A stretch of 33,468 nucleotides of DNA from Oscillatoriales cyanobacterium. GTDB lineage: Bacteria > Cyanobacteriota > Cyanobacteriia > CACIAM-69d. The stretch spans positions 1-33,468 of the forward strand of contig RDXB01000062.1 of the NCBI GenBank assembly GCA_004292515.1. Direction: 5' to 3'. The notes under the pieces are model-generated. The model saw only the letters and a list, made by a program, of their open reading frames with translations. It had not been told where the DNA came from and ran no database searches. Each line of letters begins with the position of its first letter. Position 1 is the stretch's first letter. This document shows positions 1,652 through 15,377 of the stretch, in pieces. The position numbers were made by a program, and so were the translations under genes.

Positions 1652-2272
1652 TTACGGACTCGGAGGGAGTTGCTGCTCGATGAACGTGATGATCTCTGGG
1701 AGACCTTGGCCGGTTTTGAGGTTGCTGAACAGGAAGGGGCGATCGCCGCGCATTTTTTGGGCATCCCGATCCATCACCTGCAAATCAGCACCGACGTAGG
1801 GAGCCAGGTCAATTTTGTTAATCACCAATAAGTCGGATTTAGTGATGCCGGGGCCACCTTTGCGGGGGATTTTGTCGCCAGCGGCCACATCGATCACATA
1901 GAGTGTCAGATCAACCAGTTCCGGGCTAAACGTAGCGGCTAAATTATCACCGCCGCTTTCGACAAAAGTAATTTGGACAGGGCGATCGCTTTGGGCAAAT
2001 TTGGCTTCGAGCTGTTCGATCGCCACTAAATTAATTGAGGCATCTTCGCGGATTGCCGTATGGGGACATCCGCCAGTTTCAACACCCACAATCCGATCGG
2101 GTGAAAGGGCTGCACTCCGCACCAAAAATTGGGCATCTTCTTGGGTGTAAATGTCATTGGTGACCACGGCGAGGCTGTAGCGATCGCACAGGGTTTTGCA
2201 GAGGGCATCCACCAGGGCTGTTTTCCCAGATCCCACGGGCCCGGCAACCCCAATTCGCAATTGACTGGTCAT
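1652..2272 (-). CDS. ureG: Urease accessory GTPase UreG
   Basis: UreG is the SIMIBI-class GTPase that carries nickel and drives its insertion into apo-urease together with UreF, UreH/UreD and UreE. The 206-residue protein shows the P-loop GPVGSGKT at residues 11-18, [10 protein letters not shown] at 39-48, the nickel-binding CPH motif at C69-P70-H71, [15 protein letters not shown] in the switch region and [10 protein letters not shown] as the guanine-specificity segment. Length and order match the family closely. The start follows a weak ribosome site. In many bacteria ureE, ureF and ureG are adjacent; here an unrelated gene and about 1.4 kb of different sequence lie between ureF and ureG. 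Confidence 0.97.
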
Positions 2273-3696: not shown

Positions 3697-4401
3697 TCAG
3701 CTTCTAAACAGGCGGCTGTATTGGGTTTCATGGGTCATGCTGGCGATCGATAGACCCCACCCGCAAGCAAACCAATCCTGATCGGTTTCGGCGGTAGCAA
3801 GCTCCTGAATCTCGGCGATCGCCTCGGCGACATCGGGCCACAAATTGAGTAAGGTTTGTTGGCCTTGGGTTTGACCAATCGGGATTGATCGCACCCCTGC
3901 ACTCACCAAGTTGCTGACCCAAGATTGCAAATAAGCCGTCAACATTTCTGCCGGAGTTAGATGCCAATGGGCGGCCAAACTGGCAAAGGCGATCGCATAG
4001 TTCACTGGCTCTAACCGGAGCTGCACCAAGGTTTCGTCCGGGGGTTGCAAGTCTTTTGCTAGTGTCACCAGCGATCGCCCCATTTGCCAGCTTTGCAACC
4101 GAAATTCTTCCGTTTCTCGCAGGGCCGAAATCCACTGATTCCAGTCATGAATCGCGGCGGAGTTGCCTTGATCGATCGCCTCGCGAGCCTTGACGAGGGC
4201 CACGGCTTCCAGGCGAATGCTGCCCACGCGCAGTTCTTGCCGCAACCAATCGGCCAAATCTGCCGCCGATCGCACCCGGCCCGCTTCCACCAGCGACTCG
4301 ATCGCCTCGGAATAACTGAACGATCCGACCGGCAAGGCCGGACTGGCAAGCTGCAACAGGGCCAACGATCGGGCCGCTTCATGGGTGATGGTGGTGGACA
4401 T
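3697..4401 (-). CDS. ureF: Urease accessory protein UreF
   Basis: UreF is the all-helical scaffold protein that joins UreH/UreD and UreG in the urease activation complex. The N-terminal signature LLQLASPALPVGSFSYSEAI is characteristic, followed by helices carrying VRSAADLADWL and LAAHWHLTPAEMLTAYLQSWVSNLVSAGVRSIPIGQTQGQQ near residues 150-190. I chose the ATG at 4401 (MSTTITHEAARS) rather than the upstream in-frame start at 4440 because the extra 13 residues are not family-like; this start overlaps the end of ureE by 23 bases, typical of translational coupling. Length is then 234 residues, normal for UreF. Confidence 0.94.
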   Translation of the reverse strand: MSTTITHEAARSLALLQLASPALPVGSFSYSEAIESLVEAGRVRSAADLADWLRQELRVGSIRLEAVALVKAREAIDQGNSAAIHDWNQWISALRETEEFRLQSWQMGRSLVTLAKDLQPPDETLVQLRLEPVNYAIAFASLAAHWHLTPAEMLTAYLQSWVSNLVSAGVRSIPIGQTQGQQTLLNLWPDVAEAIAEIQELATAETDQDWFACGWGLSIASMTHETQYSRLFRS

Positions 4402-4939
4402 GGCGATGGGATGCGTGGTGGGGGCGATCGCTTGGGGCATAGGCTCCCGAATCTGGCATAAAGGGCGCGATTTCCTCAGTGACCGTCAAGCCGCGCCGTT
4501 CTAGCAAATCCTTCAGGGTCGGGTCGGGGGCCAGACGCAAATAGTCGATCGCGATTTCCAAAGGTGCATGGCGGTTGCCCAAATGATAGGCCGCTTGCAA
4601 CAGGGCTAAGGGGTCGGTCGATCGCACCGTCAACACCGGTTCCGGTTGTGCCACCACCCAGCAGCAGTCGCCCTCGGCCGTGCGGAGCCGATCGCCCGGC
4701 CGTAGCACCGTGCCCCGGGCCAGTTGCAACCAAGCGATCGTGCCGTCATCTAGGGTCACCTGCCGCCGCACCTTCACACGATCCTCAGCGATCGCAGCGA
4801 GGTGGCGCGGGGATGGCCCAGGCGGCGGTGCATTGGGCGGCATGGGCTGACCTGGGCGATCGACCTGCACAAACACCCAGCGACTGGGGCCCATTGGTTC
4901 ATCAAGGTCGGGTGGCTGACTCAAATTTCCCGGGGACAA
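4379..4939 (-). CDS. ureE: Urease accessory nickel metallochaperone UreE
   Basis: UreE binds nickel as a dimer and delivers it to UreG for urease maturation. In this 186-residue protein the N-terminal domain (about residues 45-105) contains RRQVTLDDGTIAWLQLARGT and LRPGDRL. The C-terminal domain contains AAYHLGNRHAPLEI, with the histidines of the conserved metal site, and the segment ending FMPDSGAY. The tail is histidine-rich (seven His in its last 13 residues), an extra nickel reservoir seen in many UreE proteins. The first 40 residues are proline-rich and atypical, so the true start may lie downstream. It overlaps ureF, forming a minus-strand pair. Urease structural genes are not in the window. 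Confidence 0.92.
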   Translation of the reverse strand: MSPGNLSQPPDLDEPMGPSRWVFVQVDRPGQPMPPNAPPPGPSPRHLAAIAEDRVKVRRQVTLDDGTIAWLQLARGTVLRPGDRLRTAEGDCCWVVAQPEPVLTVRSTDPLALLQAAYHLGNRHAPLEIAIDYLRLAPDPTLKDLLERRGLTVTEEIAPFMPDSGAYAPSDRPHHASHRHVHHHHP

Positions 4940-5001
4940 GGGCGCAACTCCATCAAAACCGGTTGATTAGCCTTCCTAATCTATCGCGCGGCCCCTTGAC
5001 T

Positions 5002-5017
5002 CTCTAGTCCACTAGAG
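5002..5017. promoter_or_regulatory. Perfect palindrome between ureE and the cysteine-rich gene
   Basis: CTCTAGT-CC-ACTAGAG is a perfect 7-bp inverted repeat, followed three bases later by a partial third copy (CTAGAG). It lies about 60 bases before the ureE start and 150 bases before the divergent cysteine-rich gene, where an operator would be expected. No known regulator site is recognised, and short palindromes also arise by chance. Confidence 0.25.
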
Positions 5018-5165
5018 ATCCTAGAGTGAAACTGTTATACCAACTTCGTGCATTGACGCTACTCAAGATTCTTGCCTGACAAGGGTTTCAGCACAGGACT
5101 TGTGGCATCGGTAGTCGAAATTGGGATTAGTCACACTCGCCCTCGCTCGGGCAGGAGAAGTACTC

Positions 5166-5351
5166 ATGACTCAACCGACTTCGACCGCGCAATCGTTTAA
5201 AGGCCGTCGCACGATGAAGATTGTGGGCGCAGTGGCTGCTGTTCTGGCCGTGATCGCCCCGGCCGCTGCCTACGCAGCCGGCTGTGGATGCAATGGTGCT
5301 GGTTCCTGTTCCTGCGGGGCGGACTGTGCTTGTGCCAACTGCGGCAAGTAA
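5166..5351 (+). CDS. Exported metallothionein-like cysteine-rich peptide
   Basis: The 61-residue product starts at an ATG preceded by the ribosome site AGGAGA; an upstream in-frame TTG at 5121 is less likely. Residues 1-38 form a signal-like segment: a polar start with two arginines (R14, R15), a hydrophobic core of alanine, valine and isoleucine, and APAAAYA before the mature part. The remaining 23 or so residues hold seven cysteines (40, 42, 48, 50, 54, 56, 59) spaced CxC-x5-CxC-x3-CxC-x2-C, with glycine, alanine, serine and asparagine between and no aromatic residue. That is a metal-thiolate cluster design. From memory, the spacing equals that of Neurospora crassa copper metallothionein. 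It differs from cyanobacterial SmtA, which has histidines and lacks a signal. Likely role: binding copper or a similar ion outside the cytoplasm (inference). The gene stands alone and is followed by a terminator. Confidence 0.75.
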   Translation: MTQPTSTAQSFKGRRTMKIVGAVAAVLAVIAPAAAYAAGCGCNGAGSCSCGADCACANCGK

Positions 5352-5430
5352 AGCCTGACGCAACACCGTGTCAGATTTGTCAGATCCCTTGTCAAATCCC
5401 TTGCCAGATACGTTGTTTTGAAGTTTGAAG

Positions 5431-5457
5431 AAGGACGCAACTCCAGCGTCCTTTTTT
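5431..5457 (+). terminator. Rho-independent terminator after the cysteine-rich gene
   Basis: The stem AAGGACGC pairs perfectly with GCGTCCTT over 8 bp across a 7-base loop and runs into a tract of six T. It ends the transcript of the cysteine-rich gene about 80 bases after its stop. Because it lies just before the ATG at 5485, it also argues against the longer start at 5425 for the next gene, which would place the terminator inside the coding region. Confidence 0.85.
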
Positions 5458-5484
5458 GCGGCCGATCGCTGGTATGAGTGGATC

Positions 5485-6465
5485 ATGCCTACGGTTTCAG
5501 TGATTATTCCGGCCTACAACGCGGCGGCCACTTTGCCCACCACGCTGGCTTCGTTGCGATCGCAGACCTGGACAGACTGGGAGGCGATCGTGGTTGATGA
5601 TGGCTCCACGGACAGCACAGCGGCGATCGCCCAGCAACTGGCTGATCCCCGGATTCAGGTGTTGTGTTGCGCAAATGGCGGCCAGGCGATCGCCCGTAAT
5701 CGCGGCCTAGCGGTGGCTCGGGGATCGCTGGTGGCCTTTTTGGATGCAGATGATTGGTGGACTCCCGCAGCCCTGGCCGATCGCGTGGCAGCCTTGGCCA
5801 ATCACCCCACGGCGATCGCCGCCTACAGTTGGACAGACTACGTGGACGATCGCAACCAGCTATTGCATCCCGGCTTTCGCGATCGGCACGCGGGCGGGGT
5901 GTTTGGTGCGCTGTTGGCCAACAACTTTATTGAAAATGGCTCGAACCCACTGATTCGGCGATCGGCACTCGATCGCGTGGGGGGCTTCGAGAGTCGCTGG
6001 ATTCCGGCGGAAGACTGGGATCTGTGGTTGCGACTGGCAAAACTGGGTGAATTTGTGCTGATTCCCCAAGCCCAAGTGCGCTATCGGGTCTCAGCAAAAT
6101 CCTCCTCGGCAAATTTACACCGTTTAGAACGGGCTTGCTGTGGGGTGCTCGAACATCATTTAACCGACGCACCGCCGGCCCTGAAAGCGATCGGGCGGTC
6201 GGCTAAGGCGCGGTTCTACAAAGGGCTGGCCTGCAAAGCCCTGACGGCGGGCCCCCGCGATCGCTCAAGGGGTTGGCGATCGGCTCGGTTGCTGGTGTTG
6301 GCCCTTTGGTTTGATCGTGCTCTGGGGCGTGAGGGGCGGTTTTTGGGGATTTTGACGGTTAAGATTCTGCTGACGATCGCCTTGGGGCCAATCTGGGCCG
6401 CGCGGCTGTGGCGGCGGGTGACGGGCGATCGCACCCAGCATGGCGCATCATCCCATCACCCCTAA
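5485..6465 (+). CDS. Family 2 (GT-A) glycosyltransferase
   Basis: The start MPTVSVIIPAYNAAATLPTT is the classic opening of family-2 glycosyltransferases. VVDDGSTDS follows at about residues 36-44, the metal-binding DXD motif is in FLDADDWW near residue 90, and EDWDLWLRL lies in the acceptor region near residue 175. About 326 residues in all. The last 100 residues are basic with two hydrophobic stretches and may sit on the membrane. I take the ATG at 5485 because the frame upstream runs through a terminator hairpin. Such enzymes add single sugars to cell-surface glycans or lipids; the substrate cannot be told. Its stop overlaps that of the convergent ABC exporter by four bases: CTAA gives TAA on one strand and TAG on the other. 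Confidence 0.88.
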   Translation: MPTVSVIIPAYNAAATLPTTLASLRSQTWTDWEAIVVDDGSTDSTAAIAQQLADPRIQVLCCANGGQAIARNRGLAVARGSLVAFLDADDWWTPAALADRVAALANHPTAIAAYSWTDYVDDRNQLLHPGFRDRHAGGVFGALLANNFIENGSNPLIRRSALDRVGGFESRWIPAEDWDLWLRLAKLGEFVLIPQAQVRYRVSAKSSSANLHRLERACCGVLEHHLTDAPPALKAIGRSAKARFYKGLACKALTAGPRDRSRGWRSARLLVLALWFDRALGREGRFLGILTVKILLTIALGPIWAARLWRRVTGDRTQHGASSHHP

Positions 6466-9023
6466 GTTGGCAAATTGAGCTGATCGCCGTGGGTTTCAAT
6501 GATCGCCAGTTGATCTAACAGGGCGATTGCCGTGTCGTAGGCCGAGCGATATTCATGGAGCCGCCCTTCCGGTGCAGAAGCCACCGTGTCCGGCAACAGA
6601 TCATCAATCAGCTCACTGGCCAACACTTCCAACACTTGGGCCAACTGTCGAGCCTGGGGATAAACCACACGGGCGATCGGGCGCTGGCTGCCTTGGCTAT
6701 CCCAATTAGTGAACCCCGTAGCATCCTCCAGCAAATCCAGCGTGGCCAGTAATTGCATGGTGGCGCGATAGGCTTCCTTCAGGGATTCATATTCTTCCTG
6801 GGGGCTGTCCGTCAGGCCATCCGCCAACAGGGCCAAGCTGCCCAGCACCGCATTCAAGCGCGATCGCCCTTCGTAGGACAAGCGCTCCAGCAACACGGTC
6901 GATCGCATCGAAGTCGTGTCGATCAGCGGCTGCCGGCGATCCTTCCAGCCAGATTCTTGGAACTGAGCGATCGCCTCAGTCACCCGCTCTCGCACCGTAG
7001 CGCGCCACACATCTTCAGCCACTTGCTTTTGGAACTCCGCCCCCTCCCGAGTGGCCGCATAGAGCGAAGGCAAGCGGTTTAGAGTCCAGGCCATGATGCT
7101 ACCCGTGTCGCAGCGCACCGGCCCCCCCGTGGCCTCTAGCACACTGAGTTGAGACAGGGTTTCTTCGAGCACCAGGGCCTCCATCGCATTGTTGCAACGG
7201 ACTGTCGATCGCGCTGCCGTTCCCTCCGAAAACTGCACCGCGTAGAGCCGGGCGTAATGTCCTCGTTTGCCCAACAAATCCGTGTGGCTGCCCACCTCCA
7301 CCACCTGGCCCTTGTCGAGCACCGCAATTTGGTCGGCATTTTGGATCGTTGAGAGGCGGTGGGCAATCACAATCACCGTGCGATCGCGGCTCAATTCATT
7401 AATTGCTTGCTGGACTTGGCGCTCCGACACCGTATCCAAGGCGCTAGTTGCCTCATCCAAAATCAAAATATCGGGATCGCGCAGCAAAGCCCGGGCGATC
7501 GCAATCCGTTGTTGTTGCCCACCCGACAGCCGCACCCCGCGATCGCCCAACATGGTGTCGAACTGCTCCGGCAACTCCATGATGAACTCGTAGGCATTGG
7601 CCCGCTTGGCCGCCTCGATCGCCCGCGCCTCCGTGCCGTCAGCACAGCCGTAGAGAATGTTCGACAGCACCGTATTGTTAAACAAAAACGTATCTTGGCT
7701 GACGATGCCCATCGACCCATGCAAGCTCGCCAAGTCAAAGGTGCGTAGATCCTGACCATCGATCGTGATCCGTCCTTGGGAAGGGTCATAGAACCGAATC
7801 ATCAAATCCGCTAGGGTCGATTTGCCCGCCCCCGACGAGCCTACCAAAGCCAAGGTACTGCCCCGAGGAATTCGGAGATTAACGCGATCGAGCACCCGAC
7901 TTTTTTCGCGGTTCGGGTAAGCAAACGACACATTCTCAAAGCAAATATCCCGTCTTAAACCGCTAAAGGTCAGCGCACCATTGGGCACAAAATGCTTCCC
8001 TTCCCGGCTTAAAAACTTGACCATGGCATCAACAGCCGCCGAACACAAAGCCAAATTATTCAGCGCTTTGCCCAAGGTTGTCACAAAGGCAAACACTCGG
8101 GATAGCAAAAATAGATAGGTTAAAAGAATAGTGGCATAGGCTTCGACAGTTCCCGTAAAAACCAGCCGCCCCAAGCCCACAATCGCCAGCAGCGAAGCCA
8201 CAACCAACAGCTCATTAATAGAAGCAACGAACGAACTGAAGGTTTGGGAATTTAAATCAACGCGCTGGCGTTGCAACATCGTTTTAGTTAAACGATCGTA
8301 CTCCATTGATTCACTGCTAGTTGCCTTAATCAATCGAATGCCCGAGATCGCTTCGAGCAGTTCGCTGGTGTAGCGCCGACTGAGCTGCACCCCCTGCTTG
8401 CCATATTCCTTAAGGCGCTTGGCAAATCGCTGATTGCTAATGACAACCAGCAGGGAAAAAATGCCAGAAATAATCGTTAACTGCCAAGAAATTGATACTA
8501 ACAAGCCCACAAATGTCAGCAACGTGACCATGGTGGCGACGATCTGCACAATGGTGTTGATCGTGCCCACAGCACCACTCATTTCTGAGCCGAGCCGCTG
8601 AATCAAATCACCAGCCTTGGTGCGATTGTAAAAGTCTAGACCAACCCCTAGCAGCATTCGAATGCCTTGAAAAGTGGCATCATTGACCAAGGATCGCGAT
8701 AGATGACCACTAACGGCAGTGCTACAAAAAGCTAAAATATTTTTAATTAAAATAGCTACGATGATTGTGGCAATCATTGCAGAAGCACGCTGTGATTCTG
8801 GAAAATGATCAAAGGTTGCCAACAAATTGCGAACTAGATCTGGGGCATCGGCTCCTAGGTCAATTTTTTGACCCAGAAATGCCAGAATTCCCGGCACCAA
8901 AAGGGCAATACTAACACCATTAAAAATGCCGCTCCAGAAGCTCAAAATAATCGTGCTCAGAATCCAGCCCCAATGGTGGACGGAGATGCTGATTAGGAGT
9001 CGGTTACTAGGCGAGAGTTTCAT
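6462..9023 (-). CDS. ABC exporter (TMD-NBD) with C-terminal ComFB-like and degenerate HisKA-like domains
   Basis: Residues 1-330 form a type I exporter membrane domain with six predicted helices. Residues 350-595 form the ATPase: Walker A GSSGAGKST (395-403), signature LSGGQ (499-503), Walker B with DEATSALD (523-530) and the switch histidine H555. This half resembles cyanobacterial HepA/MsbA-type lipid or glycan exporters, which act as dimers. A normal exporter would end near residue 600. This one continues for 250 residues. Residues 608-690 match the ComFB family (NNAMEALVLEE, then MAWTLNRLPSLYAATREG). Residues 710-770 resemble a HisKA dimerisation helix pair, but the phospho-accepting histidine is replaced by tyrosine 717 (LSYEGRSRLNAVLGSL). 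The frame is open throughout. The substrate is unknown; an adjacent glycosyltransferase hints at glycans. Confidence 0.85.
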   Translation of the reverse strand: MKLSPSNRLLISISVHHWGWILSTIILSFWSGIFNGVSIALLVPGILAFLGQKIDLGADAPDLVRNLLATFDHFPESQRASAMIATIIVAILIKNILAFCSTAVSGHLSRSLVNDATFQGIRMLLGVGLDFYNRTKAGDLIQRLGSEMSGAVGTINTIVQIVATMVTLLTFVGLLVSISWQLTIISGIFSLLVVISNQRFAKRLKEYGKQGVQLSRRYTSELLEAISGIRLIKATSSESMEYDRLTKTMLQRQRVDLNSQTFSSFVASINELLVVASLLAIVGLGRLVFTGTVEAYATILLTYLFLLSRVFAFVTTLGKALNNLALCSAAVDAMVKFLSREGKHFVPNGALTFSGLRRDICFENVSFAYPNREKSRVLDRVNLRIPRGSTLALVGSSGAGKSTLADLMIRFYDPSQGRITIDGQDLRTFDLASLHGSMGIVSQDTFLFNNTVLSNILYGCADGTEARAIEAAKRANAYEFIMELPEQFDTMLGDRGVRLSGGQQQRIAIARALLRDPDILILDEATSALDTVSERQVQQAINELSRDRTVIVIAHRLSTIQNADQIAVLDKGQVVEVGSHTDLLGKRGHYARLYAVQFSEGTAARSTVRCNNAMEALVLEETLSQLSVLEATGGPVRCDTGSIMAWTLNRLPSLYAATREGAEFQKQVAEDVWRATVRERVTEAIAQFQESGWKDRRQPLIDTTSMRSTVLLERLSYEGRSRLNAVLGSLALLADGLTDSPQEEYESLKEAYRATMQLLATLDLLEDATGFTNWDSQGSQRPIARVVYPQARQLAQVLEVLASELIDDLLPDTVASAPEGRLHEYRSAYDTAIALLDQLAIIETHGDQLNLPT

Positions 9024-14876: not shown

Positions 14877-15377
14877 ATGTTAATCACCTCTTTTGAAACG
14901 TGGTTGCCAGATCAGGTTACTAATTCGTCTGATGACCTGTTGCAATTGCTCATAGACCGCGCAATCTTGCCCGATCGCGCCCATTGTTTGCGCCGGTTAC
15001 CCGTAGATTTCGATCGCGCCCCGCCGTTGGTGCTGCAAACGATTCAGCAATATCGACCCCGGACAGTGTTGTTGTGTGGGATGGCAGAAGGGCGATCGCA
15101 CCTCAGCCTAGAAGCCCAAGCCCAACATCAGGGTAGTTGCCTGGCCACTACCGTGGATTTACCGACACTGATTCGCCACACCCAATGCAGCCAAATCAGC
15201 ACCGATGCGGGCAATTTTGTTTGTAATTGGCTCTACTACCGCGTGCTGCAATGGGCGCTACTGGAGCGCTACAGCGGCCAGGTTTTGTTTTTGCACGTGC
15301 CGCCCCTGAGCGATCGCAACCGTGAGCCGATTCTGGCAGACGTGCGATTAATCCTCGATCGCCTGGAATCATCCTAG
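14877..15377 (+). CDS. Peptidase C15 (pyroglutamyl peptidase I)-like protein
   Basis: Pyroglutamyl peptidase I removes N-terminal pyroglutamate from peptides in the cytosol. This 166-residue protein is shorter than the usual 200-215 but keeps the catalytic residues: glutamate 71 in LLCGMAEGR, cysteine 116 in DAGNFVCNWLYYRVL and histidine 140 in LFLHVP. The N-terminal TSFETWLPDQVTNSS stands where the family has TGFEPFGG-N-S, so the substrate-pocket loop is altered. I recall such short C15-like proteins in other cyanobacteria. Activity on pyroglutamyl peptides is plausible but not certain. No strong ribosome site is seen before the ATG. Confidence 0.78.
   Translation: MLITSFETWLPDQVTNSSDDLLQLLIDRAILPDRAHCLRRLPVDFDRAPPLVLQTIQQYRPRTVLLCGMAEGRSHLSLEAQAQHQGSCLATTVDLPTLIRHTQCSQISTDAGNFVCNWLYYRVLQWALLERYSGQVLFLHVPPLSDRNREPILADVRLILDRLESS

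Follow-up and report, generated by a model that had tools for sequence, protein, structure and literature searches.

A predicted exported seven-cysteine peptide, probably a copper buffer, behind a MerR-type promoter box in one genus of cyanobacteria

Analysis of the window, a stretch of 33,468 nucleotides from an Oscillatoriales cyanobacterium, suggests that a gene for 61 residues (positions 5166-5351, + strand) probably encodes an exported thiolate peptide, induced by metal and probably by copper, that buffers Cu(I) in the periplasm or lumen. Translation of the window DNA gave MTQPTSTAQSFKGRRTMKIVGAVAAVLAVIAPAAAYAAGCGCNGAGSCSCGADCACANCGK followed by a stop, in agreement with a preliminary description of 61 residues with an arginine pair (Arg14-Arg15) in the N-terminal part and seven cysteines (residues 40, 42, 48, 50, 54, 56, and 59) spaced CxC-x5-CxC-x3-CxC-x2-C. 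At the DNA level, the window contains the seven-cysteine pattern a single time, and it was absent from all of 100 dinucleotide shuffles. The cyanobacterial origin of the window is sound, since it holds 74 copies of GCGATCGC, where about 0.8 would be expected, and the source genome contains a plastocyanin gene.

The frame is a real gene, as judged from synteny, the seven cysteines, the cleavage-like site, the ribosome site, and dN/dS. It was found in both other species of the genus that were examined (75% and 73% identity), and the peptide genes of the three species have in common all seven cysteines, the RR pair, the AYA site, and the AGGAG ribosome site. The dN/dS ratio among them is about 0.2 to 0.26; nucleotide differences fall mostly in the third codon position (12/5/20 by codon position), and cysteine codons alternate between TGT and TGC while the residue is unchanged. 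Gene order is also kept, with ureF-ureE divergent from the peptide gene, which is followed by a glycosyltransferase gene and then an ABC transporter gene (Table 1). Antisense coding at the locus was rejected, as stops break the antisense frame in the relatives. The hairpin behind the gene was not flagged by a simple terminator scan. In comparison with its relatives, the window species has about 92 nt extra between promoter and ribosome site (positions 5037-5128), making a leader of about 130 nt. Elsewhere in the window, an ABC exporter (6462-9023, - strand) has a ComFB domain fused behind its ATPase domain, and a 166-residue pyroglutamyl-peptidase-like frame (14877-15377, + strand), which resembles its family only at the front and over a short stretch at the rear, scores below the cutoffs and is possibly degenerate.

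Table 1. Features of the peptide locus (window positions) and of the second unit preceded by the same box
Feature	Position	Strand	Basis or remark
-35 element TTGACT	4996..5001	+	Invariant in three species
MerR-type dyad TCTCTAGT-CC-ACTAGAGA, centered at box position 14.5	5001..5018	+	Alignment
-10 element TAGAGT, 20 bp after -35	5022..5027	+	Alignment; boxes outside the genus
Shine-Dalgarno AGGAG	5153..5157	+	Conserved in three species of the genus
Signal-peptide-like segment, residues 1-37	5166..5276	+	n-region KGRR..K, h-region IVGAVAAVLAVIA, AYA cleavage-like site
Predicted mature 24-residue peptide AGCGCNGAGSCSCGADCACANCGK, seven Cys	5277..5348	+	Sequence, conservation
Hairpin and T-run, likely terminator	5428..5457 (about)	+	Folding energy -16.6 kcal/mol
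ureE, divergent neighbor of peptide gene	4379..4939	-	Synteny conserved
ureF, after ureE	3697-4440		Neighbor annotation
ureG, after ureE/ureF	1652-2272		Neighbor annotation
Family 2 glycosyltransferase, downstream neighbor in all three species	5425..6465	+	Annotation, synteny
Box-driven unit of ~60 nt	L159 (G000:C13:54150), L157 (G001:C1:194553), L161 (G002:C64:43868)		

The preliminary description had named the lack of a homologue with the same seven cysteines in related cyanobacteria as one ground for refutation; such genes exist within the genus, and none was found in 387 other cyanobacteria (3 others of the order and 384 further), where the profile search gave scores to the top candidates of each genome only and a strongly diverged copy could escape it. 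Across the 390 cyanobacteria, only the genes of the genus were convincing for the seven-cysteine pattern; among the matches listed for the exact DNA pattern across genome contigs were low-complexity reading frames. No relative emerged when viral and genome contigs were scanned with degenerate back-translations, and tblastn of plasmids with the peptide gave no match. A 23-codon frame, CGCRNHQTCLCGHECLCPQC, in G021 and G065 lacks a start codon downstream of the stop before it and was set aside as a chance occurrence; weak profile matches (L132-L137) and a family match (L005) were discarded as broken or unrelated frames. The peptide is known from one genus, and deep conservation cannot serve as a check on its function.

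The cysteines have exactly the spacing claimed for them, that of the copper metallothionein of Neurospora crassa, a fungal cytosolic protein without a signal peptide. This protein (1T2Y) was the best match among PDB sequences (phmmer, E 0.046, ungapped, residues 39-60), with 14 of 21 aligned residues identical and a length of 25 residues against 24 predicted for the mature peptide, which shows the arrangement of fungal-I (family 8) metallothioneins, seven cysteines in about 25 residues. A similar filler had been claimed as well: both fillers are of the Gly/Ser/Asn kind, and 7 of 14 noncysteine positions are identical, a weak resemblance (P about 0.016 by filler shuffling). No significant homology was found beyond the short pattern, and regulation is not shared. 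Since no Pfam metallothionein family and no NCBIfam family matches the peptide, and its range is a single genus, convergence on the family 8 pattern, previously mentioned as a possibility, appears likelier than common descent. The peptide also matched the mammalian MT-1 beta domain (1DFT; phmmer, PDB sequences, E 6.2), a cytosolic Zn/Cd/Cu domain with lysine-rich filler, in which the first seven of nine cysteines are spaced as in the peptide. The cyanobacterial metallothioneins SmtA and BmtA (PF02069, family 14) are likewise small and cysteine rich but, in line with the earlier distinction, differ from the peptide in being cytosolic, with a zinc-finger fold and ArsR/SmtB control. The PF02069 (Metallothio_Pro) profile did not match the peptide up to an E value of 10, by which measure it is not SmtA, and a separate SmtA gene (PF02069) is present in the genomes of the genus. 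BmtA of Oscillatoria brevis is reported, in a work cited by PMC4284471, to respond to Cu/Ag and Zn/Cd. MymT of Mycobacterium tuberculosis is likewise small and bacterial; for this copper metallothionein, binding of as many as six Cu(I) has been predicted (PMC7558416). It is set apart by its description as a copper-resistance metallothionein without an export signal like that of the peptide.

Support for copper that is independent of the cysteine pattern came from the promoter. Alignment of the upstream regions revealed a block, TTGACT-N20-TAGAGT, kept in all three species, and the 8-bp dyad within it pairs at 8/8 positions in the window and at 6/8 and 7/8 in the relatives. Metal-sensing MerR promoters have spacers of 19 to 20 bp; the -35 element TTGACT is also found in PpbrA, PmerT, and PzntA (PMC3431237), and the ZntR consensus ACTCTGGAGTCGACTCCAGAGT lies within a 20-bp spacer (PMC1526738). 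The peptide promoter has the features of the MerR metal family, namely, a TTGACT-type -35 element, a -10 element, a spacer of this length, and a central dyad, as in promoters of the ZntR/PbrR/CueR type; it differs from these in its half-sites, TCTMTAG, which represent a cyanobacterial version, and in its target, a metallothionein-like peptide in place of an efflux pump. Each of the three genomes of the genus contains exactly two copies of the pattern TTGACTCTNNAGNNNNCTNNAG, the three other genomes of the order contain none, and a reversed control gave none. Our partial survey of the literature yielded no account of a copper box of the MerR type for cyanobacteria.

A slightly stricter pattern was present in 25 of the 390 cyanobacteria, 22 of them outside the genus (reversed control, 0), and 24 box loci outside the genus were inspected for adjoining genes. 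At 18 to 19 of these, the box adjoins genes for CopZ/CopA-type ATPase, DUF305, multicopper oxidase, Grx-MauE, or MerR proteins: CopZ-like and/or HMA-type P-type ATPase genes at nine loci, MerR at six, Grx-MauE, multicopper oxidase, and Met-rich exported proteins at two each, and DUF305 at one, some loci having several gene types. For the box-linked ATPases scanned, the NCBIfam copper-translocating ATPase was the top or second match. A recognized metal gene was absent at five loci (L214, L216, L218, L219, and L231); at two of these, L218 and L219, in two genomes of one genus (G064 and G176), the box lies about 300 nt before uvrC. The -10 element recurs as well, at the 20-bp spacing: in boxes outside the genus, position 28 is A in 26/26 and position 32 is T in 24/26, both positions lying outside the search pattern. 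The company of the box points to copper, and the copper reading of the peptide, earlier drawn from its cysteines, gains a second footing in a promoter element common to cyanobacterial copper operons. In G212, the box precedes a small exported-looking peptide, MPNQIKFRILVGSLLAGVAALTLVAGSASAEDSGCACCKKMGSMPMPSSISK (L225:1280-1435, - strand), with a divergent MerR gene; this is a second exported-looking Cys/Met peptide, unrelated to that of the window.

Each genome of the genus encodes one MerR_1 protein above threshold, a candidate cognate regulator. This protein, which has the PC...ICP cysteines, shares 48% identity and the two regulator cysteines with the MerR protein of G019, whose gene is divergent from box-copZ-copA. 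The gene of the genus regulator does not lie near the peptide gene and shows no box. Its C-terminal tail consists of short repeats, ALIQQ in G000 and AQSSI in G001 and G002, in differing number (L172:4271-5332, - strand; L166; L167). Zn, Cd, Hg, or Ag may be the inducing metal, given that the regulator carries Cys at a site which is Ser in the CueR type and which has been linked to divalent sensing (PMC3431237), and that box-linked MerR proteins score below every NCBIfam cutoff, with best matches varying among MerR, CueR, CadR-PbrR, and ZntR. This cysteine and these varied matches, the resemblance of the dyad to the ZntR consensus, and the cysteine spacing shared with the mammalian Zn/Cu beta domain would all fit a metallothionein-like peptide, again exported, whose inducing metals, and the metals that it serves, are divalent (Zn, Cd, Hg, or Pb) and not copper. 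We consider this unlikely, because elsewhere the partners of the box are copper ATPases, CopZ-like chaperones, DUF305, and multicopper oxidase and because the genus already has SmtA for Zn and Cd; the regulon context favors copper as the inducer.

Copper genes share the box in other cyanobacteria but not within the genus, which has a single copper-type HMA ATPase and a single small HMA protein (chaperone); no box was found near either of these genes or the MerR gene. Since the single copper-type ATPase lacks the box, the peptide would be a main product of the switch. Behind the second box of each genome lies a unit of about 60 nt, TGCTGCCCAGCCCTAGATCCCAAGATCCTGTCAGTACA[GA]TCTTGTGGGCAGCTTTTTT, which ends in a hairpin and T-run. 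It is nearly identical in the three species, although in G000 its surroundings are not those of the other two; the upstream neighbor is ruvB in two species and another gene in G000. The unit had no match in Rfam and is likely a small RNA under the same switch as the peptide.

Residues 1-37 look like a signal peptide, and the peptide is predicted to be exported, which upholds the signal-like N-terminus of the preliminary description and extends it to all three species. By rule of thumb, the segment has Sec-type features in each of them: a basic n-region, a hydrophobic h-region (a 13-residue core at residues 19-31, mean KD 2.94), and small residues at -3 and -1, with a conserved P-x(3)-A-Y-A directly before the cysteine part. 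Export by the Tat pathway, which had been suggested from the arginine pair, found no support: the pair is conserved, but RR-T-[MI]-K, found in all three species, fits neither RR-x-[FGAVML]-[LITMVF] nor RR-x-phi-phi. Nor is there a lipobox ([LVI][ASTVI][GAS]C), Tyr and Ala occupying positions -4 and -3 of Cys40.

An exported cysteine peptide could oxidize to disulfides, which speaks against the copper reading. A disulfide-bonded peptide with another role, as a signal, bacteriocin-like, surface, or redox peptide, might well be small, exported-looking, cysteine rich, restricted to a genus, and encoded next to a glycosyltransferase; we nevertheless regard such a role as quite improbable, as three CxC pairs, a Gly/Ser filler, and an odd number of cysteines are typical of metal-thiolate clusters and the promoter box is of the metal type. 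The divergent arrangement with ureE-ureF in all three species raises the question of a nickel buffer or a nickel-delivery peptide for urease, to which we give very little credence: the peptide looks exported whereas UreE, UreF, and UreG act in the cytosol, the promoter faces the peptide gene, the box elsewhere has no link to urease or nickel genes, and the all-cysteine CxC pattern has no histidine. For all its conserved synteny, ureE probably lies outside the system of the peptide. That the hydrophobic stretch stays uncut, leaving a cytosolic metallothionein or a cysteine domain on the membrane, would accord with the long n-region (18 residues) and the failure of the Tat and lipobox patterns but is very improbable in view of the P-x(3)-A-Y-A c-region that is conserved immediately ahead of the cysteine domain.

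Exported copper binders of other kinds have been described for bacteria. The Csp1 copper storage proteins resemble the proposed peptide in role, as exported Cu(I)-thiolate stores, but are Tat-exported four-helix bundle tetramers of unrelated fold and size (PMC7558416). CopM (DUF305) of Synechocystis is an exported cyanobacterial copper binder (PMC4894872), as proposed for the peptide, but is larger, has no cysteine cluster, and is under CopRS control in Synechocystis; a DUF305 gene in G040 carries the same box as the peptide gene. Metallothioneins are listed among the exoproteins of marine Synechococcus, with unclear role.

We propose that the MerR protein of the genus would sit on the dyad in the 20-bp spacer and, with metal bound, most likely copper, would twist the DNA and so let RNA polymerase begin transcription of the peptide gene. 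The 61-residue precursor would be exported and cut after AYA, and the resulting 24-residue seven-cysteine peptide would act like a copper metallothionein. In the periplasm or thylakoid lumen, it would enclose Cu(I) in a thiolate cluster and thereby buffer copper that is released or enters there. A broader and more tentative reading, possible rather than probable, is that a bacterial metallothionein which is exported arrived independently at the cysteine pattern of the fungal copper metallothioneins and came, along with a small RNA, under the control of a MerR-type copper box, the genus handling excess copper by a secreted thiolate peptide and not by a box-controlled CopA pump.

The bacterial metallothioneins treated in the reviews consulted are cytosolic, and our partial survey of the literature found no exported metallothionein with a signal peptide. 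If the proposed function is true, an exported one would bring a Cu(I)-thiolate buffer into the compartment in which plastocyanin and cytochrome oxidase acquire copper, the supply of copper to these proteins being an open question in cyanobacteria, and would be a clean convergence on the minimal copper-metallothionein pattern. The textbook model in Synechocystis uses CopRS; with the box, a cyanobacterial copper regulon under MerR control is mapped in a form open to testing.
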